Of a stretch of DNA of 29,295 bases, positions 8,412 through 25,969 are shown in pieces. Every line of letters starts with the position of its first letter. Positions within the stretch are counted from its first letter, which is position 1. The stretch spans positions 1-29,295 of the IMG/VR virus record IMGVR_UViG_3300045993_000212. One strand, given 5' to 3'. The position numbers and the translations under genes were made by a program. This stretch comes from a virus. The notes under the pieces were generated by a model that was given only the letters and a program-made list of their open reading frames with translations, had not been told where the DNA came from and ran no database searches.

Positions 8412-9677
8412 TTAGCCCTGCACAGACAAGCGCAGTGCGTTCAATGCTGGAGCCACAGTGAAGGACAGCGTGATGCTGTTCACCGTTGTTGCCACGACAT
8501 CGCACATGACAAACGCGTTGTCGGAGACCCGGCAGATCGACGTCGTAACATAGAGTGTGTTCAGGTTGTGGGTAACCACGATTGTCGTGGCAGCGCCAGT
8601 CCCCATCGTCGTGTTGAACTTGTGACAGACACCGGAGTCGAGAGCACGAAGCGCAATCGCAGCATCGACCGCATTCAGTCGAGTGGTAAGTGTCGCAGCG
8701 AAGTTCGGGTCGTCGCCAAGAGCAGCAGCCAACTCGTTCAACGTGTCCAATGCAGCAGGTGCAGCGTTGACGATCAACTGAATGCGAGCATCTGCAGCCG
8801 CAGAGAAGTCACTGATGGTTGCCGCAGTCTGAGTTCCGGTGTGAAGGGAACGATCCTTGGCACCAGCAATGCCCGTGGCCTGAGCCGTAGATATGGGCTT
8901 CGCAGCATCCGTCGTGTTGTCGACATTGGCCAAACCGACGTGAGCCTTGGTCAAACCCGTCGGAGTGCCAGAGAAAGCCGGTGATGCGAGGTTGGCTTTC
9001 AGGTTCAATGCAGTCTGAGTTGCCGAGGATACCGGCTTCGCAGCGTCAGTCGTGTTGTCAGCGTTGGCAAGTCCAACCATCGTCTTCGTGATACCGCCAA
9101 CCGTACCGGTGAAGGTCGGGCTGGCAATATCAGCTTTGCCTGTGATACCTGCAACCACCCGAAGGTCTGCTGCAGTGGCGAAGTCGTTGATCGTCGCAGC
9201 AACCTGAGTCCCGGTGTGGTTCCCGCGTGCGAGAAGGACTGCATCGGAAGCGTTTACCGTTGCACCGGTTGCAATGCCAGTCAGCTTCGTGTCATCAGCA
9301 ACCGTGAACACGTGGTTGGTGGTTCCATCGAGGATAGTGTCGGCTGACTGAGTCCCAGTGTGGTTTCCACGTGCGAGAAGAGTCGCGTCAGCAGCATTGG
9401 CTGTTGCGTTTGCAGCGATCCCATTCAGCTTTGTGCGCTCGGCCGGAAGAAATGCCAAGCGAGTTGCACTGTCCGGGACATCGTCCATGTTGGAGATCGC
9501 GAGACCACCAATATAGTCGAACGAGGTTCCGTTACCGCAGCCAAGCTTGTCGGTGACAGTGTTGTAGAAGAGACGACCCTTTGTCGGTGTTGGAGCAGCC
9601 GCAAGATTCTGCGCAAGTGCGTTGAGCAACTGGCTACCCGACAGGTCAAGGTCGCTCAAGAAAACGGTTGTAGCCAT
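8412..9677 (-). CDS. Repeat-rich minor tail / tail fibre protein
   Basis: The protein has 421 residues from the ATG at 9677; the longer frame would need a TTG start. AGGAC lies 8 bases before the ATG. The N-terminus, with PTKGRLFYNT at residues 31-40, is a common start of phage fibre shafts. Repeats follow: NHTGTQ at about 105-110 and 153-158 with a related LHTGTQ near 279, and DNTTDAAKP at about 207-215 and 253-261 after VGLAN. These Ala/Thr/Asn-rich repeats are typical of trimeric fibre shafts. The C-terminal about 90 residues form a beta domain that includes VVTHNLNTLYV. The repeats match the N-terminus of the next gene at 6722-8410, so the two proteins probably share shaft architecture. 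Confidence 0.87.
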   Translation of the reverse strand: MATTVFLSDLDLSGSQLLNALAQNLAAAPTPTKGRLFYNTVTDKLGCGNGTSFDYIGGLAISNMDDVPDSATRLAFLPAERTKLNGIAANATANAADATLLARGNHTGTQSADTILDGTTNHVFTVADDTKLTGIATGATVNASDAVLLARGNHTGTQVAATINDFATAADLRVVAGITGKADIASPTFTGTVGGITKTMVGLANADNTTDAAKPVSSATQTALNLKANLASPAFSGTPTGLTKAHVGLANVDNTTDAAKPISTAQATGIAGAKDRSLHTGTQTAATISDFSAAADARIQLIVNAAPAALDTLNELAAALGDDPNFAATLTTRLNAVDAAIALRALDSGVCHKFNTTMGTGAATTIVVTHNLNTLYVTTSICRVSDNAFVMCDVVATTVNSITLSFTVAPALNALRLSVQG

Positions 9678-9686
9678 GTTCAAGTC

Positions 9687-11000: not shown

Positions 11001-11657
11001 TTACGGAGTGACGAACAGCGCGATGACCGCGTCCGGAAGCGGAAGCTCCGGCTCGATGGCACCAGTGCCGTACAGCAGAAGCTCCAGAGCAGTCAGGTCC
11101 GCCGCATCCACCTTGGTGGAGTCGATGGTCAGAACTGCGGTGGGCTTCAGGCCGGTGACGTTGACCGGAGTGGTCGTGACCTCCCAGCTGAAGGTGATCG
11201 CCTCAGGCGAGTCGTTGATCGAGGCGTAGGCCTTCTCCGACGGAGCCGCGAGAGCGCCGTAGACGAGGTGGAGCTTGTAGCCATGCTCCGTGCCTTCGAG
11301 GTCGTTGCCGATCTTCGTCCGGTAGGCCAGACCGAAGGTCTTGCGAGCCTGCTGACCGACGAGAACACCCACCTTGGGTGCCGCCGTGCCGTCGCACTGC
11401 CCGAACTCCTCCGGGTAGGTGAACGCCTCGATGGTCGCACCGAACTCCTCAGCGGAGACGAGGTTCAGGTACTTGATGTTGTCCGCGTACTGCGGGCTGG
11501 CCTCGGCGCCGGAGGGAGACTCGGTGACAGACACCAAGCCGTTCCACGCGAAGCCGGTGCTGTACTCGCCAGCGACATCGGGGATGTAGAGGACACCGTG
11601 ATCGACACCGGTCTCGTAGACCCGCTCGCCGACGTTGTCCCAAGTGAGAGCTGCCAT
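11001..11657 (-). CDS. Major tail tube protein
   Basis: The protein has 218 residues and starts MAALTWDNVGERVYETGVDH. The ATG at 11657 has GAAAGGAAC about 8 bases upstream. A longer frame from 11723 exists but has no supporting signal. The layout is typical of a tail tube subunit: conserved strands with a SVTESPSG turn, an EEFGATIEAFTYPEEFGQCDG segment, HLVYGALAAPSEKAY and a C-terminal LYGTGAIEPELPLP tail. It follows the head-closure and tail-terminator genes and precedes the chaperone, the usual place for this gene. Codon use is strongly GC-ending (CTC, GTC, ACC) compared with the fibre genes, as in the capsid gene, which suits high expression. Two paralogues lie at 3731-4459 and 4490-6700. 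Confidence 0.88.
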   Translation of the reverse strand: MAALTWDNVGERVYETGVDHGVLYIPDVAGEYSTGFAWNGLVSVTESPSGAEASPQYADNIKYLNLVSAEEFGATIEAFTYPEEFGQCDGTAAPKVGVLVGQQARKTFGLAYRTKIGNDLEGTEHGYKLHLVYGALAAPSEKAYASINDSPEAITFSWEVTTTPVNVTGLKPTAVLTIDSTKVDAADLTALELLLYGTGAIEPELPLPDAVIALFVTP

Positions 11658-11671
11658 GATGGTTGTTCCTT

Positions 11672-11977
11672 TCAGAAGTAAACGTTGAAAACGTCGTGAT
11701 GGAGATTGTCTGCCGCAAACCACCTGTTGAAGAGGGTCATCGGAAGAGCAGCGACCTTATCGGGAATCTCACTATCGGGATTCCGGTCAATGACGGTCAC
11801 TTGGTATCGCTTTGTGTGGCGATATGGACTGTTGTCAGCGAACCGAGTATCGGTACTGTCTTTCGCATAGACAATACACGGATACTGAATCTGCACATTG
11901 GCTGGTGGTTGGAAGTACACGAATCTACTCCCCAGAATCCCTTCAAGAAGGGTCTGGAGATCAAGCCTTTGGCCCAT
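11672..11977 (-). CDS. Tail terminator / neck protein candidate
   Basis: The protein has 101 residues (MGQRLDLQTLLEGILGSRFV at the start). I chose the ATG at 11977 because GGGAGG lies about 8 bases upstream; the GTG at 11986 is too close to that site. The pattern of an N-terminal helix, a QYPCIVY strand, then RYQVTVIDRNPDSEIPDKVAAL fits the tail-terminator/neck family between head and tail of siphophages. Its position between the head-closure candidate and the major tail protein supports this. It overlaps the gene before by 17 bases. Confidence 0.75.
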   Translation of the reverse strand: MGQRLDLQTLLEGILGSRFVYFQPPANVQIQYPCIVYAKDSTDTRFADNSPYRHTKRYQVTVIDRNPDSEIPDKVAALPMTLFNRWFAADNLHHDVFNVYF

Positions 11978-12299: not shown

Positions 12300-14426
12300 T
12301 CAGGCGATGCGGGTGAAGGTCCAGTCGGCGTCGAAGTTGTGCGGGAAGTAGTAACCCACAGCAGGAGCAGCCGACACGTCGACGCTGGTACCAGCAGCGA
12401 TCGCAGCCTGAGCACCAGAGGCAACCACGTTGGTCGGGCCACCATCGATGCTCGTGGAGTAGACAACGCCGGCGACAGCCGGAATCGTCAGAACGCCAGT
12501 GGCAGGAACGAAGGTCGGAACCGTCGCCTCAACCTGAGTACCAGCCGCACGCAGAACGATCAGCGCAGACTTGAAGAGCGTCAGAGCACCCGACATGCGG
12601 GTCTCCATCAGGTACTTGTACTGGTTGTAGTCGATGTCGAAGTCATCGAACATCGAGATGGAGCCGCCCTTGTCTGCGCCCATGGTGTAGTCGGTCAGGT
12701 TGACGACGATCGCGAGGATCTCGCCACCGACAGTCGTGAGCGACTCCATGACGGGAACGGGCACGATCTTCGAAACGCGAAGCGTGACCGCCAGCTCGTC
12801 CAGCGAGGTGTACAGACGACGACCGAGCTTGTCCTTGACCAGAAGCAGGTCAGTCAGCAGACCCTCGGTGCAGAACAGGGTCGGGGACCCGGTGCCACGG
12901 TAGTTCGGACGTGCCCGAAGGATGGCCTCGACAATGGCGTCACCGGTGACGTTCGCCGCGATGATCGTCTTGTGCGCGTAGAAGTCCTCTTCGTACGCGA
13001 TCGGACGGATGTTGGTCTCGTTGACCTTGTCCTCGTCGTCGATCTCACGACCATCGCCAACCAGCACGGCGCGGGCGATCTCCTCGTCCAGCATGATGCG
13101 CATCTCGGCCTTGAGCCAAGCCACGACGTCGAGGTCGGTGATGTCGACGATGTCGTCCCGGTCCAGCTTCTGCTTCTTGTAGATGGTGGTCGGGGTGGTG
13201 ATGCGCTTCTGCAGACCGAACCACTCCTCCTTCTTCAGAGCAGCCTTGACGTAACCCTTGGCACGGGCCTCGTCGAGGGTCAGGTCAGCCGAGATCGTCT
13301 TGATCCGGGAGAAGGGCGACTTCTTGGCTCCGTTGAGAACCACGCTCACCCACTCCTGCCGGCGGGTGATCATCTCGGGGCTGGAGGCCAGCGTCCGAGC
13401 GTCCGGGAACAGGAAGTCGATGTTCTCGATGCCGTACTCCACCGCGTGCGCGAGGAAGGACTCCTTGAAGGAGCCGATCTTCTGCGCGTCGTCCACGATG
13501 GTCTTGAGCTGGTCGTGGGTCAGCGTGGCGCGCTCCTGAGGGGCAATGCCGTTCTGCTCGAAGACGTTGGTCATGTCAACGGTTCCTTCCGTGTGCTTGA
13601 GGTCGCCCTCGTTGGTGGTGTTGCCCTCTTCGGCATTGTCGTCAGAGGAGTGTGATGCTGACTGAGACGCGTCGATCGCGGCACCAATCATGTAGTAGAC
13701 GACGTTCTTCTGCTCTTCGGAGAGAGTCTCGAAAACGTCCTTGACGGTGGAATCCGCGGAGTGAACCACGGCATCGGTTGCGTCAGATCCATCGACAACC
13801 TCCGTGTCATCCAGTCCCGACTGTGCAACCGAGCCAGCCTTGGCCTGCTCGACGGCATCGCCGATCATGAAGTACACGACCTCCTTCTCCTCGGGAGAGA
13901 AAGCGTCGAAGACATCCTTGACTGTCACTTCGCCAGCGGATGCTGACTGTGCCAGACCTTCGTGCTCGAGAGTGAGACCTGTGAATATGATGGCCTCGTC
14001 CTCAAGCGTCTCGAAGTCCCCGTCGCCATGCGCGAGGCTGATGTTGTCGATGAGTGCGCCCGGGTTCGCACCTGAGAGGACCAGACTGACCTCTCGGATG
14101 GTTCCGTGGAACACACTCTTGGCACGCTCAACCAACTGGTTGGCGTAGATGGACAACGCGACGATGTCGCCGTGCTGAACGAGCGCCTTGGCGTTCTTGC
14201 CACCGGAGTTCTCATTGAAGAAGGCGTAGGTGTACACGCCGTCCTCACGAGCTTCGAGAATCGCGTGTCCGAGGACATTCGCGGGATCGTTGTGGCCATG
14301 CTGCCAGACGAGAGGAACCTTCTGACCGTCCATGTGCTTGAATGCTTCAGGCATGATGGTTCGCCCGTCGGAGCACTTGAGGCCAGCCTTGGTTGCGTAA
14401 CCGCTGAAATCGGCTTCTGCTGCCAT
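12300..14426 (-). CDS. Prohead protease - scaffold - major capsid protein fusion
   Basis: One 708-residue frame combines three parts. Residues 1 to about 130 are an HK97-type prohead protease, with His43/His45 in WQHGHNDP and a probable catalytic Ser114 in REVSLVLSGA. Residues about 130-280 are an acidic linker with two copies of a VKDVF..(S/L)..(E)(E/Q)K.VVY(F/Y)MIG helix, probably the scaffold part. Residues about 285-618 are an HK97-fold capsid protein, followed by a beta-rich C-terminal domain (about 620-708) like an added immunoglobulin-type decoration. The start at 14426 has AAGGAGA about 8 bases upstream; the frame is open to 14624 but without signals. An internal ATG at 13574 has its own ribosome binding site. 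Codon use is GC-ending as in the tail tube gene. Confidence 0.92.
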   Translation of the reverse strand: MAAEADFSGYATKAGLKCSDGRTIMPEAFKHMDGQKVPLVWQHGHNDPANVLGHAILEAREDGVYTYAFFNENSGGKNAKALVQHGDIVALSIYANQLVERAKSVFHGTIREVSLVLSGANPGALIDNISLAHGDGDFETLEDEAIIFTGLTLEHEGLAQSASAGEVTVKDVFDAFSPEEKEVVYFMIGDAVEQAKAGSVAQSGLDDTEVVDGSDATDAVVHSADSTVKDVFETLSEEQKNVVYYMIGAAIDASQSASHSSDDNAEEGNTTNEGDLKHTEGTVDMTNVFEQNGIAPQERATLTHDQLKTIVDDAQKIGSFKESFLAHAVEYGIENIDFLFPDARTLASSPEMITRRQEWVSVVLNGAKKSPFSRIKTISADLTLDEARAKGYVKAALKKEEWFGLQKRITTPTTIYKKQKLDRDDIVDITDLDVVAWLKAEMRIMLDEEIARAVLVGDGREIDDEDKVNETNIRPIAYEEDFYAHKTIIAANVTGDAIVEAILRARPNYRGTGSPTLFCTEGLLTDLLLVKDKLGRRLYTSLDELAVTLRVSKIVPVPVMESLTTVGGEILAIVVNLTDYTMGADKGGSISMFDDFDIDYNQYKYLMETRMSGALTLFKSALIVLRAAGTQVEATVPTFVPATGVLTIPAVAGVVYSTSIDGGPTNVVASGAQAAIAAGTSVDVSAAPAVGYYFPHNFDADWTFTRIA
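13572..13590 (-). promoter_or_regulatory. Possible internal translation start for free capsid protein
   Basis: Inside the protease-capsid fusion, reading on the minus strand, GGAAGGAACC is followed about 6-8 bases later by an ATG at 13574. The codons after it encode MTNVFEQNG, which looks like the natural N-terminus of a separate capsid protein. Use of this start would make a 424-residue capsid protein (12300-13574) in addition to the 708-residue fusion, allowing different amounts of protease and coat subunit. Confidence 0.45.
13665..13748 (-). repeat. Scaffold helix repeat, copy 2
   Basis: This segment encodes residues about 227-254 of the protease-capsid fusion: TVKDVFETLSEEQ, then KNVVYYMIGAAIDA. 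It is closely similar to the copy at 13842-13925, about 60 residues earlier. Helices of this type recur in the linker of phage protease-capsid proteins and probably do the scaffold's work. Confidence 0.85.
13842..13925 (-). repeat. Scaffold helix repeat, copy 1
   Basis: This segment encodes residues about 168-195 of the protease-capsid fusion: TVKDVFDAFSPEE, then KEVVYFMIGDAVEQ. Compared with the copy at 13665-13748, about two thirds of positions are identical. The linker between the copies is rich in Asp, Ser and Ala and looks disordered. Confidence 0.85.
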
Positions 14427-14442
14427 TTTGACTGTCTCCTTC

Positions 14443-15750
14443 CTAACTTGTTCGTACTGAAGTTGCTGACCCCGACGGAGCCGGCATGACACGCTTTGTA
14501 GAACCATTGGCCAAAGGATCGACCGGTGGGGCTGCTGTCGGCGGTGCTGCTGGTGGTGCTGCCGCTGGCATGTTGCTGTTCTGGAGTTTGTCCGCCTTCG
14601 GATCGGTCGAAGGCTGGATGCCAATGACCTGCCGGATCTCGTTCGAACTCATGATCTCATTCCGAGCGAACTTGTCCGCGATGTCGGCGATCGATGCGAT
14701 CGGGACAAGCTTGAAGGGATCTCGGAAGTACATGATCGACTGAAGTTGAGAGCGCGCAGTCTTTGTGAGGAAGGTGCGCTTCATTGCTTCAGTAATCGCG
14801 GCCAGAACCGGTTCAATCGTTCGGTTCATGTAGTTCAGCATGGCCTTCTCATCCGCGGTGCCATTCATGACTTCCTCGGTAAGACCCAACTGGCCATACA
14901 ACATGGTCGTGAGGTAGGTGACCTGCGCGAGGAGGTTGTTCTCGGCCGGCCGGTTCAGTTGAGTGATCTTCTCGGTACCGTCTGTGTAGGCGATGCCGTA
15001 CTTGCTACCCTTCAACTGGAACTCGATGTCTTCCCTACGCTGTTCTGCCTGCAGCCGTCTGGCTTCAGACTTGATGACGTATGGAAGCTGAATGATCAGG
15101 TCGAGTTTGCCCGAACTTGAAGCCTCATCGACGGTATCGAGAAGGTTGAGTTTCCGGATGAGTCGCTGCAGAGTCGAGTTCGACTCGTTCATCACCGAAT
15201 ACAGTGGGTTCTCAACAATCGCCACGAACTTCTTCTCGAGGACGATGTCTTGTCGCAGACCAGTTGCCTCATTGTAGAGACTGACCTTGACATGCTTTGG
15301 ATACCACGTGACAACCTCACCAACGCGCATGGTCTTGATGTCGAACGACCCTGAACTCGACGGATCGAGTGACGTGTCTACCGGAACAATCGCAATAACG
15401 CCCTTGTCAAAGAGAGTCATTGCTGCATCCTGCCGGAAAGCGCGAGCGGCTTGGTCAAGATTGGCCTCAATAGTCAAGCAAGCGTTGAGACCACTATCCT
15501 CGTCCTTCAGGTATCGCTTCTTTTCGTCCAAACGAACGTGTCGAAGATCCACTGACGCAACATCAATGCTGAGACGGGTGTAGATAGAGGAGATGATCGA
15601 TCGCTCGTTCGAGTAACGAAGTCTTACTCGATCTGGTCGAGCACCATAACTTGCGCTTCCCGACGAATATGAGAAGTCGTTGGTGAGTTCGCTCTCATTC
15701 GAAACTGTGAACGCACTCCACGCATGTTTGATCCTTGATCCGAGTGCCAT
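14443..15750 (-). CDS. Portal protein
   Basis: The protein has 435 residues, with ribosome binding site AAAGGAGG before the ATG. It carries the hallmarks of a siphophage portal. These include an N-terminal ring domain with RYSNERSIISSIYTRLSIDV and a helical region around LYGQLGLTEEVMNGTADEKA. A conserved C-terminal block (FKLVPIASIADIADKF, then NEIMSSNEIRQVIG) follows. The C-terminus after about residue 390 is a Pro/Ala-rich disordered tail. Twelve copies are expected at one capsid vertex, forming the DNA channel that docks with the terminase. It sits between the HYG-motif genes and the protease-capsid gene, the standard place. Confidence 0.92.
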   Translation of the reverse strand: MALGSRIKHAWSAFTVSNESELTNDFSYSSGSASYGARPDRVRLRYSNERSIISSIYTRLSIDVASVDLRHVRLDEKKRYLKDEDSGLNACLTIEANLDQAARAFRQDAAMTLFDKGVIAIVPVDTSLDPSSSGSFDIKTMRVGEVVTWYPKHVKVSLYNEATGLRQDIVLEKKFVAIVENPLYSVMNESNSTLQRLIRKLNLLDTVDEASSSGKLDLIIQLPYVIKSEARRLQAEQRREDIEFQLKGSKYGIAYTDGTEKITQLNRPAENNLLAQVTYLTTMLYGQLGLTEEVMNGTADEKAMLNYMNRTIEPVLAAITEAMKRTFLTKTARSQLQSIMYFRDPFKLVPIASIADIADKFARNEIMSSNEIRQVIGIQPSTDPKADKLQNSNMPAAAPPAAPPTAAPPVDPLANGSTKRVMPAPSGSATSVRTS

Positions 15751-15782: not shown

Positions 15783-16256
15783 CTACTTCTGGCCGAGAAT
15801 CATGCCAACAGCGATGAGTCCAGCAGCGCCGTAGACAATCCCGGCAGTGATCTTCTCGCCTCGGGTTGCCTGCATTGCCATCTGAGCATCTCCGCTGGTG
15901 TAGAAGTCCTTCTCCAGCTTTCGCATGGTCTTCTCGGCTCGGTCTTTGCCCTTGTTCGTACGGGCCACCATCAGATCACCCTGAGACTCTTGGTACTTGC
16001 GCCCACGAGCCTCTTGCCGGACACGAGCGCCATAGATCGCCTGCGTTCTCTCTGCCGAAGCAGCTTTCTTCGCAGATTTGGCGCTCTGCTTCTTGTTGTA
16101 ACGATCAGCATTCGCGGCGGATGCTTTGCCGAACTTGCTGTCGTTGAGTTTCTGAGCAACGGGTCGAACGCCAGTCTCTGCGTCTCGACGAACGCCCCAG
16201 TGCATGCCCTTCTTGCCGTAATGCGCGAGGACCACCTCGCTGGGAAGCTCAGTCAT
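15783..16256 (-). CDS. HYG-motif head-region protein with C-terminal membrane segment
   Basis: The protein has 157 residues. The motif HYGKKGMHWGVR lies at residues 12-23, followed by a Lys/Ala/Arg-rich helical middle and a hydrophobic C-terminus (residues about 135-155, GIVYGAAGLIAVGMILG). The start overlaps the stop of the gene before in ATGA. Two other proteins nearby (16253-16630 and 18385-18906) share the same motif near the N-terminus, but their remaining sequences differ. From memory, this motif recurs in head-region proteins of many phages without an assigned role. A membrane-active or capsid-internal protein injected with DNA is possible, but this is inference. Confidence 0.82.
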   Translation of the reverse strand: MTELPSEVVLAHYGKKGMHWGVRRDAETGVRPVAQKLNDSKFGKASAANADRYNKKQSAKSAKKAASAERTQAIYGARVRQEARGRKYQESQGDLMVARTNKGKDRAEKTMRKLEKDFYTSGDAQMAMQATRGEKITAGIVYGAAGLIAVGMILGQK

Positions 16257-16630
16257 CGCGGAGTCGCTGTGATACCGAGGTCCAGAAGACCGACATTTGC
16301 GTACTTGTCGATGCGGTCTGACCAGTTCTGCTTTCCGGCCTTCAGACGCTTGTCCTGAGCCTTCATCGTGGCCAGATTCATCTTCCAGTTCCGCTGCTGC
16401 TGCTCGGCGCCAAGGATCTTCTTGCCGACAGCGACCGAGACCTTGTACTTCTTGCCGGACTGAGCGTCCTTGATGATCTTCGTCGTCCGGGCGTTGCGGT
16501 CGATGAGTGCGCCGGAAGATCGGGAGACGCCAGTGGTCCCCTTACCCTTGCGAACTCCCCAGTGCATGCCTTTGGTCCCGAAGTGCTCGACGACTTCATC
16601 GATCGGTGGTTTCTCAGCTAATTGTGTCAT
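16253..16630 (-). CDS. HYG-motif head-region protein, basic
   Basis: The protein has 125 residues from the ATG at 16630, which has CAAGGAGG about 9 bases upstream and overlaps the terminase stop in ATGA. HFGTKGMHWGVR lies at residues 16-27. The remainder is strongly basic and helical (KDAQSGKKYKVSVAVGKKIL, then NWKMNLATMKAQDKRLKAGK), which would suit binding to packaged DNA. It is short compared with the two relatives. Function is unknown; its place between large terminase and portal points to head assembly or an internal capsid protein. Confidence 0.82.
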   Translation of the reverse strand: MTQLAEKPPIDEVVEHFGTKGMHWGVRKGKGTTGVSRSSGALIDRNARTTKIIKDAQSGKKYKVSVAVGKKILGAEQQQRNWKMNLATMKAQDKRLKAGKQNWSDRIDKYANVGLLDLGITATPR

Positions 16631-18369
16631 TCGAATGCCTCCTTGTTGGCTTTCCATGCGATGTAGGCATCCATCAAGGCTGCCACGTTGTCGATCTTCT
16701 CGTCTTGTCGCTTCTTCATGAGCTTGCGGTTACCATTTGTGTCTTCGAGCGTGATGGCATTACCCATCGTAAACGACATTAGATCCTGATCGAATATGAG
16801 CAGACGCTCTTCACTCAGAATCTTGAGTTCACCGAGTGGAACTGACTCGCTCTTGGCGCCCTGAATAACCTTCTCAATACCGAAGGGTCCGTTCTCCGCT
16901 TCCCAGCGTTTCACAAACTCCTTGGCGTTGTATGGGTCGAACCCAAAAGCACGAACATCAAACCTCTGGTCCTCGATGTACGACTCAAGGTCTTCGTACA
17001 CCTCCATCATGTCGAGGATCGTTCCCTCGAGAATATGAAGGCTGCCTTCGTTGATGAACTGATCGTACTTGTGACGCATTGCGCCCGGTAGTTTCATCAA
17101 AGTCAGCGACGAGATATAACTTCGGGTCTTTACGCCGAAACCAGTCCTCAACGGGAAGAGAAATGTGAACGCACAGAAGTCGTCACCCTGTGAAAGGTCC
17201 GCGCCCATGGCGCAAGGCATCTCCCAGAATTCTCGAGGGCGATGTGTCAGTGTCTCTTCGTATGTGAAGAAGTATGTGTAGCCCTCCATCGGAATACCGA
17301 ACCGCTTTGCAAGGATGTCATTCCTAGCAGCAGGAGCTTTCTCGGCTCGTTCGACATCGAGATGGTATGTGTCATACGTGACGGTCTTTCCGAGGTTTGG
17401 GTTCGCCTTAAGCCAAGTCGATGGGTCATTGACTTCCTCAAGTTCATCCAACTTGTAGTGCCAGATCGAAACATGTGGTGCAACGAAGTCGCCTTTGAGA
17501 ATATCGGCGAGTTCCATCTTGATCGTGTCACCACTGCCGTTTCGAACTGTTCCCTCGGAGCTAATCGCGACGATCAGGTAGTCATCAAGCTTCGATGCAC
17601 CCTGTTCGACTGCACCAACGACGTCTTCCCGAATATCACCAGACAACCACTCATCGATCGTTGAGATTTTGGGTCGTAGACCCTGAAGTTTGTTGATGGC
17701 CATCGGGCGAACCTCAAGCATTGACCCGGTAAGGAAGTTCTCGACGCCCTTCTTGGTCGAAGCAAGCTTCACACGGTTGGCCCGAGAGCCGGTAGTGTTC
17801 TGCATTGAACCTTCGGTCAAGAATTTGAAGAGTGGACCTCTACTACGAGTGATCGCAGTCCGGCAGGGAGACATAACTTCGTCTGCCTGCTTCATCGTCG
17901 GCGCAGTTGTGATCTGATGCGTCGTTGCTGTGTCAACGTTGAGGAAATAACTCTGGATGCAGGATGCATACATCGACTTCGCTGCACCTCGAGCGACGAT
18001 CAAATACTGCTTCGTGGTTAGTCGCTTCTTGATTGTCTTTTGGACATAGCGACCACCATGATGATCGGGCGTTGGTTCGTAAACACTACGCTCGACGAAG
18101 TAGTACCACCCAAATATCTGCTCTGACCACAACTTGAACGTGGGCAGAAGATGTAAGTCACCTCCGTCAGTGAGAGTAAGTTCGTTCTCGCAATATAGAA
18201 CGAACCCCTCAACGGCTTGATCGTCGTAGTAGATGTTCGGATTGGCGATGAGCGCGTCAATGCGGTTCATCTCCAGTGTGACCTCCCGGTTTACCGGAAT
18301 ATCGCCATGTAGCACCGCTTCACGAAACTGACCGTAGTACGTCGGTACCGCTTTGTTCGATAGCGTCAT
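16627..18369 (-). CDS. Terminase large subunit
   Basis: The protein has 580 residues. The ATG at 18369 has GGGAGGG about 8 bases upstream; a TTG two codons earlier is less likely. The N-terminal ATPase domain has a Walker A-like RGAAKS at residues 127-132 (preceded by QYLIVA) and Walker B TIDEW with Asp239-Glu240. The C-terminal RNase H-like nuclease domain has Asp391 in GADLSQGDD, Asp478 in FDPYNAKEF and an acidic DNVAALMDA near 560-568. This matches HK97-type large terminases, which cut concatemers and pump DNA through the portal. Length is in the usual range. The small subunit is separated from it by six genes. Confidence 0.93.
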   Translation of the reverse strand: MTLSNKAVPTYYGQFREAVLHGDIPVNREVTLEMNRIDALIANPNIYYDDQAVEGFVLYCENELTLTDGGDLHLLPTFKLWSEQIFGWYYFVERSVYEPTPDHHGGRYVQKTIKKRLTTKQYLIVARGAAKSMYASCIQSYFLNVDTATTHQITTAPTMKQADEVMSPCRTAITRSRGPLFKFLTEGSMQNTTGSRANRVKLASTKKGVENFLTGSMLEVRPMAINKLQGLRPKISTIDEWLSGDIREDVVGAVEQGASKLDDYLIVAISSEGTVRNGSGDTIKMELADILKGDFVAPHVSIWHYKLDELEEVNDPSTWLKANPNLGKTVTYDTYHLDVERAEKAPAARNDILAKRFGIPMEGYTYFFTYEETLTHRPREFWEMPCAMGADLSQGDDFCAFTFLFPLRTGFGVKTRSYISSLTLMKLPGAMRHKYDQFINEGSLHILEGTILDMMEVYEDLESYIEDQRFDVRAFGFDPYNAKEFVKRWEAENGPFGIEKVIQGAKSESVPLGELKILSEERLLIFDQDLMSFTMGNAITLEDTNGNRKLMKKRQDEKIDNVAALMDAYIAWKANKEAFE

Positions 18370-18384
18370 CGCCAACCCTCCCTT

Positions 18385-18906
18385 CTACTTCTTCTTCTTG
18401 CCGGGTTTCTTGGAACTGACCTGCAAGAACGCCTCGGCTACCTTCATGCCGATGGATACCCGCGGATCGTTTGCAACAAGCATCCCAACCTTGAGTGTTC
18501 CGCCAATGAGCGACTTGGTCGTCTTGTCCTTTGTCGCTTTCTTCGCGAATTCAGCCCCCTTCTTGAGGGCATTCGGGTCAAGCCGGGAATACTGCTGCTC
18601 AAGATTCATCCGGTTGACAAGTTCCTGCAGATCCTTCGTTGACAGCGAGTCAGTCGAACTCTTTCGAGCCTGCTGCTTCGATACCGCCACTTTCTTGGCA
18701 TCTGCAGATGCCGGAAGCTCTTTCCCGCCTTTGGTTCGGAGCTTCTTGCCCGGACGTTCCTTCATTGCGACTTCAGACTTCGATGTGGTCTCGGAATACT
18801 GGCTCTTGGTCCGAACACCCCAATGCATGCCCTTGGTTCCGTAGTGGGCAAGGACAACGTCGGTTACGCCTCCAGATCCACCACTACCGGATTTGGACTC
18901 GTCCAT
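18385..18906 (-). CDS. HYG-motif head-region protein, Lys-rich
   Basis: The protein has 173 residues from the ATG at 18906 (GGAAGGAG about 6 bases upstream; the longer frame from 18939 lacks a signal). HYGTKGMHWGVR lies at residues 21-32 after a Gly/Ser-rich start. A Lys/Ser-rich stretch follows, then a helical block (LSTKDLQELVNRMNLEQQYS) that I recognise from other phage proteins carrying this motif. A hydrophobic segment (SLIGGTLKVGMLVA) and a poly-Lys C-terminus complete it. It overlaps the connector gene by 43 bases. With the two relatives it forms a family sharing only the short N-terminal motif. Role unknown; capsid-internal or assembly protein is the best guess. Confidence 0.82.
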   Translation of the reverse strand: MDESKSGSGGSGGVTDVVLAHYGTKGMHWGVRTKSQYSETTSKSEVAMKERPGKKLRTKGGKELPASADAKKVAVSKQQARKSSTDSLSTKDLQELVNRMNLEQQYSRLDPNALKKGAEFAKKATKDKTTKSLIGGTLKVGMLVANDPRVSIGMKVAEAFLQVSSKKPGKKKK

Positions 18907-19244
18907 GATTCTCCTTCCCTCTTGACGTTGAGACGCCATTCGAACTCTGCGACCTGCTCCTTCAGCGCACCGATGAGGTACGACGTGGTTGGCGGGTCGA
19001 AGAGAAGACGAACACGCAAGTACACGTAGGTCTTGACCGAGTTGAGCTTGCGATCACCCATAGTGAAGCTGTCCCACTGGGCTACAGCATCTTCGATCCA
19101 GAATCCGTCCTCTGGTCCGATGCCCATCTGGTTCAGAGTGGCGAAGACGGAGTTGATGTGCATCATGATGTCCTCATCGAAGGCCGTGTAGTCAGCTTCG
19201 ATGCCCAAGATCTTCTTGGTTGTGTTGAGAATGCTGTTGTCCAT
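18864..19244 (-). CDS. Head-tail connector protein (HK97 gp6-like)
   Basis: The protein has 126 residues from the ATG at 19244, which sits 8 bases after AGGAGG; the GTG at 19253 would overlap that site. The sequence (ILGIEADYTAFDEDIMMHIN, NSVKTYVYLRVRLLFDPP, LIGALKEQVAEFEWRLN) fits the gp6-like connector family: four helices that form a ring beneath the portal. In most phages this gene lies after the capsid gene. Here it lies before the large terminase and directly after the endolysin gene, an unusual place. The 3' end overlaps the HYG-motif gene at 18385. Confidence 0.85.
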   Translation of the reverse strand: MDNSILNTTKKILGIEADYTAFDEDIMMHINSVFATLNQMGIGPEDGFWIEDAVAQWDSFTMGDRKLNSVKTYVYLRVRLLFDPPTTSYLIGALKEQVAEFEWRLNVKREGESWTSPNPVVVDLEA

Positions 19245-20109: not shown

Positions 20110-20264
20110 CAGACGTCTTCCTTCTCGACATCGGCCTCGGCGAAGGACTCGAAGTCGCTCTCGGGAAGAGAACTTTCGTCGTCGGTGCCCGGACCGTCAA
20201 GGGTGTCGCGCTCGAGAGCTGCAGCGACATCCTCTTCGTCATGGTTCTCTTCGATTTCGTCCAT
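20109..20264 (-). CDS. Small acidic protein
   Basis: The frame is too short for most ORF cut-offs but looks real. It has 51 residues, about a third of them Asp or Glu, starting MDEIEENHDEEDVAAALERD and ending EKEDV. Two ATG codons stand side by side (20267 and 20264); AGGA lies 7 bases before the second. The stop overlaps the endolysin ATG and the start overlaps the stop of the LuxR-type gene, so all three genes appear translationally coupled. Function unknown. High negative charge could suggest a DNA mimic or a partner of a basic protein, but nothing proves that. Confidence 0.7.
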   Translation of the reverse strand: MDEIEENHDEEDVAAALERDTLDGPGTDDESSLPESDFESFAEADVEKEDV

Positions 20265-20689
20265 CATGCTGTCCTATCGATTGGTGTGGAAACGACAACG
20301 TCGTTACTGAGTGGATCTAGACCAAGGCGAAAGCCGGCTGCCGTTGCACCCCCTCGGTTATGTACGTCAAGCTTGATGTACACGCTTTGAATGAGCGACT
20401 TGACCGTTGATACGCTAATGAAGAAGCGCTTGGCCATTGCCGCAGTGCTGTCGCCCGCCATGATGCGTAGCAGAATTTCAGTTTCACGCGAAGAGAGATC
20501 CTTCTCAAGATCGATTCGTATGATCACTGGTTCTTGTCGTACTCTGAGAGCATCTATTGTCGTGAGTGCGATAGCCAACCTCGAAACCTCATTGCGGAGG
20601 TACTTGATTGTCTGACTCAGTCGAGCATTCTCTTTACGAGCCTCAAAAATCTCTTGACGCTTGTCGGCGCCTACTAAAGATCTGTTCAT
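20264..20689 (-). CDS. LuxR/GerE-type helix-turn-helix regulator
   Basis: The protein has 141 residues. The C-terminal half (residues about 65-124) is a GerE-type DNA-binding domain: LSSRETEILLRIMAGDS, then the recognition region MAKRFFISVSTVKSLIQSVY and IKLDVHNRGGA. The N-terminal 50 residues are a predicted coiled coil (EARKENARLSQTIKYLRNEV) and probably dimerise. No receiver or autoinducer domain is present, so it resembles small stand-alone regulators. The ATG at 20689 follows an in-frame stop a few codons upstream; GGGAG lies about 13 bases before it, which is too far for a strong site. It sits between HNH/terminase genes and the lysis gene and might time late or lysis gene expression. 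Confidence 0.87.
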   Translation of the reverse strand: MNRSLVGADKRQEIFEARKENARLSQTIKYLRNEVSRLAIALTTIDALRVRQEPVIIRIDLEKDLSSRETEILLRIMAGDSTAAMAKRFFISVSTVKSLIQSVYIKLDVHNRGGATAAGFRLGLDPLSNDVVVSTPIDRTA

Positions 20690-21491: not shown

Positions 21492-21538
21492 AGAATCAAC
21501 TCCCTTCGGTAGTAGTTGTTAGTGAGTTTTGGAGGGCT

Positions 21539-21691
21539 CTAAAGAGACTGCAACGCGATGATCAAGGGTACCATCACCCAGAAAAACAAACCGAGGGCTA
21601 GCAGGTTGATCTTCTGGACTGGGACCGAGAATGCGGCAAGAAGGAAGCACACCGCAGAGAGAAGGAACAGAACTACGTAAAGAGTTGCCAT
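21539..21691 (-). CDS. Small two-helix membrane protein
   Basis: This gene is too short for most ORF cut-offs. It encodes 50 residues, starting MATLYVVLFLLSAVCFLLAA and followed by VQKINLLALGLFFWVMVPLI. Two hydrophobic helices fill almost the whole protein, with a short VPVQK turn between them. GAAAGG lies about 7 bases before the ATG at 21691. It is the first gene after the non-coding stretch 21692-21979. A holin-like role with the endolysin is possible given size and topology, but similar small membrane proteins are common in phages and have no proven role. Confidence 0.72.
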   Translation of the reverse strand: MATLYVVLFLLSAVCFLLAAFSVPVQKINLLALGLFFWVMVPLIIALQSL

Positions 21692-21785
21692 GTCAAAGCC
21701 TTTCGTAGGGGTCTAACAGGAGTAGAAACCGGAAGCTTCCCACCAAAAGTACCCCCGGGGCTAAAATATAGGGTGCGGCGATGCA

Positions 21786-21820
21786 GAGGGGGGGTCTCTT
21801 TTGCGAGGGTCCCCCCCCTC
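21786..21820. repeat. GC-rich inverted repeat (hairpin)
   Basis: Arms GAGGGGGGG (21786-21794) and CCCCCCCTC (21812-21820) are perfect 9-bp complements around a 17-base loop. The hairpin would be very stable. No T-run follows on either strand, so a simple intrinsic terminator is unlikely. Confidence 0.8.
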
Positions 21821-21831
21821 CCCAACAAATA

Positions 21832-21873
21832 GTCCCGAGATCTAAGAAATTTTTCATCCTCAAATCTCGGGAC
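21832..21873. repeat. Perfect 10-bp inverted repeat
   Basis: GTCCCGAGAT (21832-21841) and ATCTCGGGAC (21864-21873) are perfect complements separated by 22 bases that include an A/T-rich GAAATTTTTC. This may be an operator pair, a packaging-protein binding site or an RNA hairpin. No T-run follows. Confidence 0.8.
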
Positions 21874-21979
21874 CAAATGTTGTACGCACACAAACTGATA
21901 GTTCTTTTCAACGACTAACTGCATCGCTATTCAATTGCGCAAGAGTTTTCCAAACTCAAAACACAACCACTGTACTAAG

Positions 21980-22237
21980 TCAAGATGAGATTACTGGCTC
22001 ACCCTGTGCATCGACTTTCCTGTACAGTCCAAGAACATTCTCCTCTACAATCTCATCAATTGCCTGCATGATTGCAAGGTTCTGATCGGCTTCAGACAGA
22101 TCATCTGAAGTCTTGACAATCCTTGCAAGGAACGATGATGTGTAGTGTCCTAGTGCTTCATCGCATGCCTGCCACTCATCGAAGTGAGTGAAAGGATTGA
22201 ATGGATTGTCCACTGTTGTTAGCATGTACTGTGCCAC
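21980..22237 (-). CDS. Conserved actinophage protein of unknown function
   Basis: The protein has 85 residues, starting MAQYMLTTVDNPFNPFTHFD. The block TVDNPF-PFT-FDEW, then D-A-G-YT-SFLARI, is one I recognise from many actinobacteriophage proteins without known function. It is acidic and helical in the second half (LSEADQNLAIMQAIDEIVEE). The start is uncertain: GTG at 22237 has GAGAGG about 6 bases upstream, and ATG at 22225 has GAGG about 12 bases upstream. It follows the RNA-polymerase-like gene by 14 bases and is the last gene before the non-coding stretch. Confidence 0.8.
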   Translation of the reverse strand: MAQYMLTTVDNPFNPFTHFDEWQACDEALGHYTSSFLARIVKTSDDLSEADQNLAIMQAIDEIVEENVLGLYRKVDAQGEPVISS

Positions 22238-22251
22238 CTCATCCTCTCTCT

Positions 22252-24987
22252 CTAGATGCTTGTCTTGAGTGTTGTTACAGAGACGCCTAAAGCAGACGCT
22301 ATCTCTGCCTGTGTGTAGCCACGTGCAGCCATGCTTGCAGCCTTAGCAGTCTTAGCAGATGTCATCAGCAACTGTACTCTTGGTGTTGCCAATGCCTTGA
22401 CTACATCTAGATCAGCGTTGTCAAGGATCTTACCTAACCTGTCATTGCTGATTGCACCTGCCTGTATAGCAGCCCATTCGTTGGGTGTGATGATGATCTT
22501 CTGCTTCTCTGCACCAGTCCTTGTACGAGCAGCATCAAGTGCTTGAGACTTGAGCTTCTTGAGTTCAGACTTCTCCATGTCACCATTAGATGCACGCTTA
22601 GCGGCGATGACCGCGTTTGCTAGGACCTGGGCTTGTCTTTCAAGGGGGGCGTTTCTCTGGGCGAGGGTCAGTTTAGAAACGAGGGAGGCTACTTCTGGAG
22701 CATAGGCGGCCTTTGCTGAATCTGAGATCTTGTTGGTCTTGATGTGGACCATCTCAAGCCTTGCTGTGTTAGCCAATGCTTTCAGCTTGTTAGAGTGCTC
22801 TGCATAGACACGCTCTATCTTGGTGCCACCATCCTTGGATAGGAGAGTGCGTGCATCAGTGGTCTCAATCAGCTTCTGTGAACGCTGCTTGTTGAAGACG
22901 ACCGTGTCCTTCGAGACGCCCTTCTTGTTGACCGTAGTACGGGTGTAGTTCTCGCCTGTTGGGACGAAGACTAGAGCACCCGTCTTCTTGTCAATAGGGC
23001 CACCATCTTTGGCAGGGCGGGGCTTTTTTGCATTGATGGTCTTCTCACCAGTGGCCCTCGAAATGAGGGTTGATGCACCTGCTGTTGGCCCACCTTGATA
23101 TTTGACCTTGAGGGCCTTGATGCCATGATCAGTGGCAGACCGCTTGTAGTCGAGACTGTGCTTCTCTGCATCGATGACAACCATGGAATGCCGAACTGCT
23201 CGAGCAAGCTCGGTCGATGTTGCACCTTGGATAGTCATGTCCGTGATGAGGTTCGAGATGTCACCCATATGGGTACCTTTTGTCTGGACGGTCATCTTGA
23301 CCATGCCATCATATTTTGGGTACTCGGTTTTGGGGTCGAAACCAACAAGACGTGCTAGTGGAGGAGAAGTCTTGATTTCACCTTTGCCATTGGGTATGAC
23401 AAGGACTGTGTCGCCATCGAAATCTGCACCAGACAGCCTTTCGGCCACCTTAGAACTGATCCCAATTGCATCTGTAGCACCCTTGAGAAGCTTGATCGCA
23501 GCAGGGTTCTTGTTGTTGACGGTCAACTCAGGAATCTCGAATATGCCACCATGGGGGTAACGAATCAGTGCGACTCGAGTCCCATTGTCGAAGTTGGGGG
23601 CATAAACTTCGGTTTCCTTCATTTTTGGAACTGGAAGGATGACATGCGAACTCTGACGAGGCATTGCAGCAGCCTTGAGATGCACTGCTGACGAATCTGC
23701 CGAATCCGCAAACGACTGGAGAAGCTTGGCTCTGACAACAGGGTTGGTCAAAGCGGAGATCTCATCGAGATCGAGCTTCTTCTTGTCGTACGTCATGGCC
23801 AACTGTGCCTTAGCGAGTTCGGGACTCTGCTTCGACAGCATCTGGGATGAGAGGTTTCTCGACCACTTGTCCCAATCGCCTTCTTGGTTGACCATATTCA
23901 TGGCAGAGGTTGCACGCTCTTTACCATCAGGACCGAGGCCTTTGATCTGCCCAGCAGCACCAATTGCAGCGCCGAAGGGATTGCCTTCATCGATCTTTCC
24001 GGTTGCCTTGTCGATCTGCATCTTCTTCATCGCGTCCAGCTTGTTGCCTGTGTCGCTCTTGACTGTGTTGAATACGAGGTCGACGCCTTTCGGCATGTCA
24101 TCCTTGTACATGGCCATACCTTTGAGGTAGTGCGAGCCATCCACAGCAACACGAACTTGGGCATAGCGATTCTTGCCGAGAGACACATCATCCACGCCAC
24201 GACGGACATAGATCACGCCATCAGCTTCATCGCCACCTTCTTCCTTGTATCGAACGCCAACTCGAGAGGAGCTGATGTTCAACGGGGGAAGAAGACCGGA
24301 CCACGAGAGGCCACCATCATCGGTGTGTTCAGTTACCGACTTGATGTCACCCTTGTTCATCACGATGTCTCGGTATGTGGTTCCGGGAGGAGCCAACACT
24401 CTGATGGTGGTCTTCTGATTACCACCAGTACCAAGCTGATCGATCTGAACCTTGTGGTATGCGTAGCCCTGTTCTTTCAGGATCGCAATCGCTTTGTCTA
24501 GGCGGTCGCGGCTGAGATTCAGGTGATGCTCAACTCCAGCACCAACATCGATGAAACCCTTCTTGTCCACGTAACCTTGAAGCATGGTCGCCGTTGACAT
24601 GAGAGCCTTTGCCTTCTCCATCTGACCGGGAGCAAGCAGTGATCGAACAGATGACTCATTGAGCTCCATCTGTCGACCGATAGCACTCGTGGACATGCCC
24701 TTTGCTGCTAGGCGCTGAGCGGTAGATATGGCGGCCTGCTTCTGCTCGTTCTTGGCAATGGTCTTCATCGCCTGCAGATCAGTGCGGGTCATCTTGAATC
24801 CGTTTTCAGGATCGCTGAGCCCTTTCGCAATATCCGTGTCTGTGAGTCCTTGCTTCCTCATGCTCTCAACATAGTCGAGGAAGTTCTTGTTGCGTTGGTT
24901 CTCTGTGCCACCTGAGCCCCAAGGATAACGACCTGACTTGCGGGCCGTGCCATAGTGAGCGAGATAGTCTTCGATGTCTACGATCAC
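22252..24987 (-). CDS. RNA-polymerase-like protein with DFDGD motif, HYG-type N-terminus and helix-turn-helix ends
   Basis: This 911-residue protein has four visible parts. Residues 11-25 (HYGTARKSGRYPWGS) resemble the HYG-KGMHWGVR motif of the head-region proteins. Residues about 48-57 and 90-118 look like helix-turn-helix segments (AAKGMSTSAIGRQMELNESS). Residues about 485-616 hold RYPHGGIFEIPELTVN, GADFDGDTVLVIP (Asp522, Asp524 and Asp526, the metal-binding triad of multisubunit-type RNA polymerases), then MGDISNLITDM and VIDAEKHSLDYKRSA, in the order seen in single-chain QDE-1/YonO-like polymerases. The last 26 residues form another helix-turn-helix (ARGYTQAEIASALGVSVTTL). GTG at 24987 overlaps the previous stop. 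Enzyme activity is inferred, not shown. Confidence 0.8.
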   Translation of the reverse strand: MIVDIEDYLAHYGTARKSGRYPWGSGGTENQRNKNFLDYVESMRKQGLTDTDIAKGLSDPENGFKMTRTDLQAMKTIAKNEQKQAAISTAQRLAAKGMSTSAIGRQMELNESSVRSLLAPGQMEKAKALMSTATMLQGYVDKKGFIDVGAGVEHHLNLSRDRLDKAIAILKEQGYAYHKVQIDQLGTGGNQKTTIRVLAPPGTTYRDIVMNKGDIKSVTEHTDDGGLSWSGLLPPLNISSSRVGVRYKEEGGDEADGVIYVRRGVDDVSLGKNRYAQVRVAVDGSHYLKGMAMYKDDMPKGVDLVFNTVKSDTGNKLDAMKKMQIDKATGKIDEGNPFGAAIGAAGQIKGLGPDGKERATSAMNMVNQEGDWDKWSRNLSSQMLSKQSPELAKAQLAMTYDKKKLDLDEISALTNPVVRAKLLQSFADSADSSAVHLKAAAMPRQSSHVILPVPKMKETEVYAPNFDNGTRVALIRYPHGGIFEIPELTVNNKNPAAIKLLKGATDAIGISSKVAERLSGADFDGDTVLVIPNGKGEIKTSPPLARLVGFDPKTEYPKYDGMVKMTVQTKGTHMGDISNLITDMTIQGATSTELARAVRHSMVVIDAEKHSLDYKRSATDHGIKALKVKYQGGPTAGASTLISRATGEKTINAKKPRPAKDGGPIDKKTGALVFVPTGENYTRTTVNKKGVSKDTVVFNKQRSQKLIETTDARTLLSKDGGTKIERVYAEHSNKLKALANTARLEMVHIKTNKISDSAKAAYAPEVASLVSKLTLAQRNAPLERQAQVLANAVIAAKRASNGDMEKSELKKLKSQALDAARTRTGAEKQKIIITPNEWAAIQAGAISNDRLGKILDNADLDVVKALATPRVQLLMTSAKTAKAASMAARGYTQAEIASALGVSVTTLKTSI

Positions 24988-25544
24988 TGCATGGCCTCGA
25001 TTCTGATGGCTTGAATTCGCTTGTCGAACGTGATGATCCTATCCATGATATGGACGATTACATCTGGGTCTGCTTCGTAGATCCGTGTTTCATCGTTCTG
25101 GTAGATCCGAAGCTCAGTCTCGATCTCGAAAGGCTTGATCCGATACTCGAGGCAGAACATTGCAGCGTAGATCTCGAGCTGGTGTTCTGATGTAGGACCC
25201 ACGCCGGTCTTAAGGTCGTGAATCCGCAACTTATTACGCTTGAAGGATATGGTGTCGGCTGTTCCAAAGCAGTTGTCCGAGTAGTACAGGATCTGCTCTG
25301 AAGCCATCCGAAACCCGATCGCATCGTTGACATAGAGATGAAGAGTCTTCTCTGTTCTCGGAAGCTTGATGCCCAACCGAATTGCCTCATGTGCAAACTC
25401 GTGAAGTTCGGTTCCACGCCTTGCTGCCAAGTTGGCAATATAGACACGGTCGATCTTCTCCTCATCATAGTTGACCCACGCATACTTCGATGCTGACAGA
25501 AACGCGTGTTGTCCGATGAGATTGGTGTGCGGGTTGAAGAGCAT
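24984..25544 (-). CDS. RecB/Cas4-like PD-(D/E)XK nuclease
   Basis: The protein has 186 residues, with AGGAGG before the ATG. Motifs in order match the RecB/Cas4-type exonuclease fold: His48 in RRGTELHEFAHEA, Asp97 in FGTADTISF, Asp110-x-Lys112 in IHDLKTG, and Gln122 to Tyr126 in QLEIYAAMF. No four-cysteine iron-sulphur cluster is seen, so it is closer to phage exonucleases than to full Cas4. It probably processes DNA ends in replication or recombination. It overlaps the RNA-polymerase-like gene by 4 bases, so the two are made together. No Cas genes or repeats are nearby. Confidence 0.85.
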   Translation of the reverse strand: MLFNPHTNLIGQHAFLSASKYAWVNYDEEKIDRVYIANLAARRGTELHEFAHEAIRLGIKLPRTEKTLHLYVNDAIGFRMASEQILYYSDNCFGTADTISFKRNKLRIHDLKTGVGPTSEHQLEIYAAMFCLEYRIKPFEIETELRIYQNDETRIYEADPDVIVHIMDRIITFDKRIQAIRIEAMQ

Positions 25545-25568
25545 AAATTTAGCCTCCTAGTTTCGGGG

Positions 25569-25889
25569 CTACTCGCGCTGTTGTGCGCGTGCCTGCCGAC
25601 GAGGTTTGAACACGACAGCGAGCGCCTTCAAGACGTCGTTCTCGTTCTCGGGGTAGATGAATGCCGCGAAGGACATGTTGTTCAGCTCGTCCACGTAGTA
25701 CTCTTGGTTGGGCTGAGTTGGAGCGTCGATGGAAGCCTTCACCTCGAGCATCGCCCACTTGTCCTTGAACAGGATGGTGAGATCGGGCATGCCCTGCAGG
25801 TAGTCCGTGTCGTTCTTCAGGATGATGCATCCACGAAACCTGTGGCGCAACTCTTTGATGAGCTGGGCTTGGTAGTCGCGCTCGAGCAT
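25569..25889 (-). CDS. VRR-NUC-type nuclease
   Basis: The protein has 106 residues. The ATG at 25889 has GGGGAG about 8 bases upstream; a TTG five codons earlier is less likely. The PD-(D/E)XK pattern is clear: Glu13 in LIKELRHRF, GMPDL with Asp36, Glu49-x-Lys51 in MLEVKAS, and a downstream QPNQEYYVDEL helix. VRR-NUC domains cut branched DNA such as replication or recombination intermediates. Stand-alone phage versions often accompany helicases, as here. It is preceded by the best promoter in the window and followed after 24 bases by the RecB/Cas4-like nuclease gene. Confidence 0.88.
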   Translation of the reverse strand: MLERDYQAQLIKELRHRFRGCIILKNDTDYLQGMPDLTILFKDKWAMLEVKASIDAPTQPNQEYYVDELNNMSFAAFIYPENENDVLKALAVVFKPRRQARAQQRE

Positions 25890-25939
25890 GAGTATTCTCC
25901 CCAAAAGTCGTTGGCAGAAACATAGGCTTAGTCCCTTCT

Positions 25940-25969
25940 ATTATAGGGCACGATTAACGTGCTGCTCAA
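25940..25969 (-). promoter_or_regulatory. Sigma70-like promoter for the nuclease / RNA-polymerase-like operon
   Basis: On the minus strand, TTGAGC (25964-25969, four of six consensus) is followed after 18 bases by a perfect TATAAT (25940-25945). It lies in the 88-base gap after the HNH gene and would give a leader of about 45 bases before the VRR-NUC start at 25889. Genes down to 21980 follow with short gaps or overlaps and could be one transcript. Confidence 0.65.
25948..25962. promoter_or_regulatory. Operator-like dyad within the promoter spacer
   Basis: GCACG-attaa-CGTGC is a perfect inverted repeat with 5-bp arms and a 5-base centre, lying exactly between the -35 and -10 boxes. A repressor bound here would block RNA polymerase. 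A ribbon-helix-helix protein (29143-29295) and the LuxR-type protein are candidate binders; neither is proven. Confidence 0.5.

Follow-up and report, generated by a model that had tools for sequence, protein, structure and literature searches.

The window analysed here is a whole 29,295-nucleotide stretch of viral DNA (IMG/VR record IMGVR_UViG_3300045993_000212, positions 1 to 29,295). One of its minus-strand genes had been read in a first-pass annotation as a single-chain RNA polymerase (RNAP) with helix-turn-helix (HTH) segments at both ends. The locus raises the question of whether this protein is an RNAP and, if so, which genes it would transcribe, from which promoter, and how the first copies would reach the infected cell. 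The features of the gene are as follows.

22252-24987, minus strand: predicted single-chain two-barrel RNAP, 911 aa (PHROG 4291), GTG start
23410-23424, minus strand: catalytic metal-binding triad, D522-F-D-G-D526
24121-24123, minus strand: K289 of the KGMAMY block, candidate DPBB lysine, invariant in the alignment
24058-24060, minus strand: K310, invariant in the alignment
24910-24963, minus strand: N-terminal tag, residues 9-26, LAHYGTARKSGRYPWGSG (HYG...SGRYPWGSG), conserved and predicted to be disordered
24634-24879, minus strand: N-terminal helical or HTH region, residues 37-118 (PHROG HTH matches, predicted helices)
22258-22344, minus strand: C-terminal HTH, residues 882-910 (Pfam HTH_28, 1.8e-6; Sigma70_r4_2, 3.7e-6; above cut-offs)

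The metal-binding loop and the two blocks that the annotation had described were all located in the open reading frame: GADFDGDTVLVIP at residues 520-532 (SGADFDGDTVLVIP at 519-532), MGDISN at 574-579 and VIDAEKHSLDYKRSA at 604-618. Homologues were aligned (69 sequences, 44-82% identity to the window protein). The SGADFDGD loop was invariant, and the expected conservation of the three aspartates (D522, D524 and D526) was borne out in every sequence. GADFDGD was itself the search pattern in some family scans, which favours triad-bearing matches; the triad was also kept in a homologue set gathered with other patterns. K289 is a candidate for the DPBB lysine, and the places of K289 and K310 in the barrel are putative.

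A model was built with AlphaFold2 from the 69 sequences (mean pLDDT 85, pTM 0.72) and compared with the PDB using Foldseek. All 16 matches at E<=0.001 were two-barrel RNAPs (QDE-1, RDR2 and P74-26 gp62), in agreement with the two-barrel fold that had been anticipated. Weaker matches, ranked below these 16, were msRNAP large subunits, and the crAss-type protein cr272_1 was among the weak viral fold matches. TM-scores were low, at about 0.3, which makes the domain arrangement uncertain; such values would be expected of a match confined to the barrels, with outer domains that differ.

The phrog_4291 profile gave a full-length match (residues 5-910, 1275 bits), and that of the YonO family, phrog_8308, a local one (residues 449-584, 5.6e-5). 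Since YonO of phage SPbeta itself falls in phrog_8308, with a score of 1220 bits, its link to the window RNAP is real and distant. No T7-type RNAP domain was matched in Pfam, in PHROGs or in the fold search of the window RNAP, and phmmer of the protein against the PDB gave no match. A sequence-profile search against the PDB returned no catalytic match and mainly HTH and designed helical proteins, together with a 'tape tail measure protein' (8h2n, E=0.66) that is probably the P23-45 gp96 RNAP. The PDB fold matches, the phrog_8308 match and the invariant Asp triad agree in supporting the annotation's assignment of the product as a single-chain msRNAP-type polymerase.

PHROGs and RefSeq label the family as an RNA-dependent RNA polymerase. 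Activity on RNA templates would be in keeping with the nearest solved folds, QDE-1 and RDR2, and with a Pfam RdRP match at E=0.026. There are, however, QDE-1 structures on DNA templates as well (7y7r, 7y7s), HTH domains are typical of DNA binding, and the genome is dsDNA with a lineage-specific promoter-like motif, described below. In addition, the non-virion RNAP of the DNA phage P23-45 has a close homologue in the relative P74-26 gp62 (PMC10770324). This reading is considered very improbable, and catalysis on DNA is presumed in what follows.

The HTH segments claimed for both ends were recovered, the C-terminal one by Pfam and the N-terminal one by PHROG HTH families, which match residues 72-117 (3e-6), and by helices predicted in the AlphaFold2 model at residues 68-95, 100-107 and 111-118. 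Another helical unit spans roughly residues 29-57. With the lineage-specific promoter-like motif now found, promoter recognition by the RNAP chain itself becomes plausible.

The spread of the family was assessed by tblastn. Relatives were found in 250 phage records in GenBank/RefSeq; in 249 of them the match covered 80% of the protein or more, and identity was about 38-58%. The hosts were Arthrobacter, Gordonia, Streptomyces, Lactococcus, Curtobacterium, Rhodococcus, Microbacterium, Bifidobacterium and others. More than 500 relatives were present among IMG/VR contigs and 142 in GTDB genomes, many of the latter from Lachnospiraceae and other Clostridia (prophages). The first-pass view that such phage enzymes are few does not survive these counts: the RNAP is common to a widespread phage lineage of Actinobacteria and Firmicutes. 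The family already has database entries, most often under the names 'HTH domain protein' or 'RNA-dependent RNA polymerase', and phage single-chain two-barrel RNAPs and virion RNAPs are kinds already known. A literature search confined to papers outside subscription returned no treatment of the RNAP family, the promoter motif or DUF7211, no characterisation of PHROG 4291 proteins (1706 orf75, actinobacteriophage homologues) as polymerases, and nothing relevant on DUF7211 or the tag sequence.

The genes around the RNAP gene were assigned as follows.

25569-25889, minus strand: endonuclease, first gene of the operon (phrog_93, 6e-13; 42% identical to Arthrobacter phage Gordon gp86)
24984-25544, minus strand: exonuclease, overlapping the RNAP start (phrog_3953, 7.5e-79)
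21980-22237, minus strand: small conserved protein 3' of the RNAP gene, last gene before the presumed cos gap (phrog_4303)
21492-21979: presumed cos gap
16627-18375, minus strand: terminase large subunit (phrog_9, 2.7e-110)
14443-15750, minus strand: portal (phrog_12, 3.4e-40)
12300-14624, minus strand: head protease-major capsid fusion, a lineage marker (phrog_3270, 1.5e-232; Peptidase_S78 and Phage_capsid)

A different frame for the first gene of the operon, 25549-25923, was rejected on comparison with Gordon gp86, which gives 25569-25889. The RNAP gene sits where the replication region ends, just ahead of the late module and outside the late operon. The order of RNAP and small protein is the same in Scap1, 1706 and ReqiPoco6, where the cos end comes next. 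The genus tally of the head protease-capsid fusion is nearly the same as that of the RNAP.

Several other features of the window were recorded. At 21823-21882, in the presumed cos gap that separates the RNAP operon from the late genes, there is an inverted repeat (24-nt arms, 79%) together with a terminator-like hairpin. The lysis/late region encodes a 141-aa LuxR/GerE-type HTH protein (20264-20689, minus strand; Pfam GerE, 3.5e-11; PHROG 'sigma factor', 5.6e-9), a candidate late-gene regulator. Two minus-strand genes, 4490-6700 and 11001-11723, belong to the major tail protein family phrog_2645, and the family match of the 736-aa member is restricted to its first 225 residues. The 423-aa product of 8412-9683 (minus strand) gave numerous partial matches, to tail fibre families and to repeat-rich phage families, and is likely to be a fibre-type protein. 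An Rfam search of the window gave no match.

Intergenic repeats were collected from three annotated phages of the lineage (Lactococcus 1706, Arthrobacter Gordon and Streptomyces Scap1). One common pattern, GCA-N3-TTTACA-N5-TATA(A/G)T, was present before early genes in all three, and in RNAP-bearing genomes it is part of a longer, bipartite motif placed ahead of early genes, TCGCARAWTTTACA-N5-TATARTGARA (full consensus, TCGCARAWTTTACANGSCYTATAATGARA; variants, TATAATGA versus TATAGTAGA). The exact motif was scanned for in 2.9 million viral contigs, and results were read at contigs of at least 32 kb (38 tested). The RNAP was encoded by 26 of these 38. Eleven of the remaining 12 carried the lineage's capsid-protease gene, mostly with several motif copies, and are therefore taken as fragments of the same lineage; a single contig was background-like. 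The motif is found almost only in viruses of the RNAP lineage.

The converse comparison was made on 30 RNAP contigs, 20 of them picked without reference to the motif. At up to two mismatches all 30 carried it, with 177 matches against 3 for the reversed pattern. The motif strand was that of the RNAP throughout in 28 contigs, with one stray in each of the other two. Ten bacterial genomes with RNAP prophages (2.2-6.6 Mb) gave 20 matches at up to one mismatch, 14 of which shared the strand of the RNAP gene and preceded it by 15-28 kb.

A weight matrix was derived from 20 contigs outside the motif definition. It gave 10 sites in Gordon, 7 in Scap1 and 9 in 1706, all forward and none reverse; the sites precede early-region genes, and none fell in the late module, which makes up 43-52% of each of these three genomes. 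In 18 terminase-bearing contigs, the 18 kb that follow the terL start contained none of the 79 motif sites, against an expectation of 28.8 (P~3e-16); the first sites appeared at 18-19 kb, near the end of the late module. From this distribution the motif is likely to be the promoter of the lineage's early genes. The late genes, which are without it, are probably left to host RNAP or to a later factor. In Gordon, a 391-bp gap without annotated genes (31468-31858) carries three motif copies about 100-150 nt apart and possibly encodes small RNAs. The idea that tRNA genes lie downstream of some 1706 and Gordon sites was rejected, as ARAGORN found none.

In the window, which is without the early region, a pattern search at up to three mismatches found no motif site. 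The weight matrix identified one.

25938-25962, minus strand: predicted promoter of the nuclease-RNAP operon, motif variant GCACGTTAATCGTGCCCTATAATAG (12.8 bits, weight matrix)

It is the sole minus-strand site in the window above 0 bits (the next scores -0.5), and its score was reached in 5 of 200 shuffles. It stands 0.95 kb upstream of the RNAP start, before the endonuclease-exonuclease-RNAP genes. Of 161 relatives, 111 had a site in that interval, some 0.9 kb before the RNAP start, compared with 4 that had one on the opposite strand and none with one in the adjacent interval.

The window site is a weak variant, and a sigma-70 reading could also fit it. The RNAP may be real and act elsewhere, with the motif being a host sigma-A -10 element and an adjoining box for another phage DNA-binding protein, such as an activator or a sigma-appropriation factor. 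TATAAT is the sigma-A -10 consensus hexamer, and at the window's own site TTGAGC, 18 nt upstream of it, is a fair -35 match; both count against a promoter read by the RNAP alone. The motif and the RNAP are also co-inherited with other lineage genes, including the capsid gene and the tag proteins, and co-occurrence alone does not assign the motif's reader. Across 733 non-redundant sites, however, TTGACA at 16-18 nt was not enriched (7.6% versus 8.6-10.6% in controls); conservation beyond the matrix consisted of T (0.83) and C (0.94) before GCA, and purines downstream. The same motif is moreover kept across hosts as distant as Lactococcus, Arthrobacter, Streptomyces and Clostridia. A spacing of 5 nt between box and TATA element is an unusual position for a sigma-A activator. 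A host-read motif is accordingly regarded as unlikely, and recognition of the motif by the RNAP chain is preferred.

The N-terminal tag bears on how the enzyme might be supplied. Most of its positions were conserved in at least 90% of the 69 sequences, and G13, S18, G19, R20, G24 and S25 were invariant. Residues 9-27 of the AlphaFold2 model had pLDDT<50 and are predicted to be disordered; predicted disorder together with six invariant residues is the pattern of a linear signal. An exact scan for HYG....SGRYPWGSG found it in RNAPs only, some of them whole and others truncated at contig ends or by frame breaks. The start of the tag resembles DUF7211, the part in common being short (LxHYG only). 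A DUF7211-type profile made from 199 non-RNAP copies matched the N-terminus of 168 of 177 RNAP homologues; the highest score was 11.9 bits, and 1770 shuffles gave no more than 3.4. Three DUF7211 proteins are encoded in the window, adjoining the terminase and portal genes, each with LAHYGTKGMHWGVR or a close variant near its start.

18385-18939, minus strand: DUF7211 (HYG-tag) protein, LAHYGTKGMHWGVR (PF23847, 5.7e-9)
16253-16657, minus strand: DUF7211 (HYG-tag) protein, VEHFGTKGMHWGVR (PF23847, 1.2e-7)
15783-16256, minus strand: DUF7211 (HYG-tag) protein, LAHYGKKGMHWGVR (PF23847, 3.4e-9)

The HYG motif lies in the first 40 residues of 177 of 210 DUF7211 proteins, and its genus tally over 50,697 phage records is nearly that of the RNAP. 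Neighbouring genes were terminase (21/60), portal (10) and head protease (5). The domains beyond the tag are unrelated: 2'-5' RNA ligase-like in 15 of 121, GNAT, and papain-fold glutamine deamidase-like. DUF7211 is itself a 25-aa, mostly N-terminal tag, whose carriers also include P-loop NTPases and one portal fusion. DUF7211 proteins are candidates for an injected payload.

The RNAP homologue of Lactococcus phage 1706, orf75, is annotated as 'structural protein'. Both 1706 proteins with tag-like starts, orf7 and orf75, carry this annotation, and the ReqiPoco6 record repeats that of the 1706 homologue. The database annotation and the conserved disordered tag support the virion location that the first-pass annotation had raised, and suggest that the RNAP probably rides in the virion. 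The simplest reading of the HYG tag would then be a capsid-loading tag. The internal proteins of T4 have a capsid targeting sequence, a parallel to the proposed loading tag.

A further possibility is a non-virion polymerase of the YonO kind, made by host RNAP after infection and transcribing late genes. YonO of Bacillus phage SPbeta is likewise a single-chain phage RNAP of msRNAP ancestry with a DxDxD loop. It transcribes the SPbeta late genes, with its promoter sequence left open (PMC5467207), and its gene lies upstream of them, just as the window RNAP gene lies just upstream of the late module. Against this stand the absence of motif sites from the late module (0/79), the structural annotation of the 1706 homologue and the conserved disordered tag. 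YonO also differs in its PHROG (phrog_8308 rather than PHROG 4291) and in having no HYG tag, and BLASTP and hhalign gave no full-length alignment between the two proteins, the PHROG profile being the sole link. A late polymerase appears quite improbable, less likely again than a motif read by the host.

The reading preferred here, and considered probable, is an early DNA-dependent single-chain two-barrel RNAP that is packaged into the virion by its tag and reads the bipartite promoter without host sigma. The enzyme, loaded through the N-terminal HYG...SGRYPWGSG tag, would enter the cell together with the genome and transcribe early genes from TCGCARAWTTTACA-N5-TATARTGARA, the HTH regions plausibly reading this promoter. 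The site before the nuclease-exonuclease-RNAP operon would then yield further enzyme for the next virions. Should this operon have no promoter other than one of the RNAP's own kind, the initial enzyme would have to be brought in from outside or be made by host transcription; virion packaging would solve its supply. Virion RNAPs of N4 (PMC12633501), phiKZ (PMC4666361) and P23-45 (PMC10770324) provide precedents. The position of the gene speaks against the preferred reading, as it falls outside the late operon, where the replication region ends, and overlaps the exonuclease gene.

A wider combination is put forward more tentatively, as possible. It joins a sigma-independent RNAP that reads its promoter with its own HTH domains, loading of the capsid by a general HYG/DUF7211 tag that would also deliver other enzymes into the host (2'-5' RNA ligase-like phosphoesterases, GNATs and papain-fold proteins), and one promoter code from Lactococcus and Clostridia to Streptomyces.

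Among known systems, P23-45 and P74-26 likewise encode two-barrel single-chain RNAPs, non-virion (gp64/gp62) and virion (gp96, fused to the tape measure), and P74-26 gp62 is a fold match to the window RNAP. Their virion RNAP serves the pre-early genes, with an AT-rich motif (PMC10770324). The window RNAP is instead a stand-alone 911-aa chain with HTH ends, a short tag and no tape-measure fusion, and the motif of its lineage is different and bipartite. The gp66 RNAP of crAss-like phage phi14:2 is a much larger protein. It, too, is a single-chain two-barrel phage RNAP (PMC10770324). Unlike crAss-like phages, the window lineage has genomes of 43-60 kb and mainly Gram-positive hosts. QDE-1 and plant RDR2, the best solved-structure matches, are eukaryotic RNA-silencing enzymes with a known role that does not include promoter recognition. 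The full-length homologues, 1706 orf75 and the actinobacteriophage 'HTH DNA-binding domain protein', belong to the same family (PHROG 4291).

The gene stands under 'HTH protein' or 'RNA-dependent RNA polymerase' labels in hundreds of sequenced genomes of actinobacteriophages and Clostridia prophages. If the pairing of motif and RNAP is true, the early transcription programme of these phages would be readable from sequence, and the tag hypothesis predicts other proteins injected by them. With a single chain of 100 kDa and a promoter of 30 bp, the pair would serve as a transcription tool independent of the host in Streptomyces, Lactococcus and gut Clostridia. The system would also offer a compact model of sigma-less initiation by a two-barrel RNAP and a simple means of transcription in distantly related bacteria.
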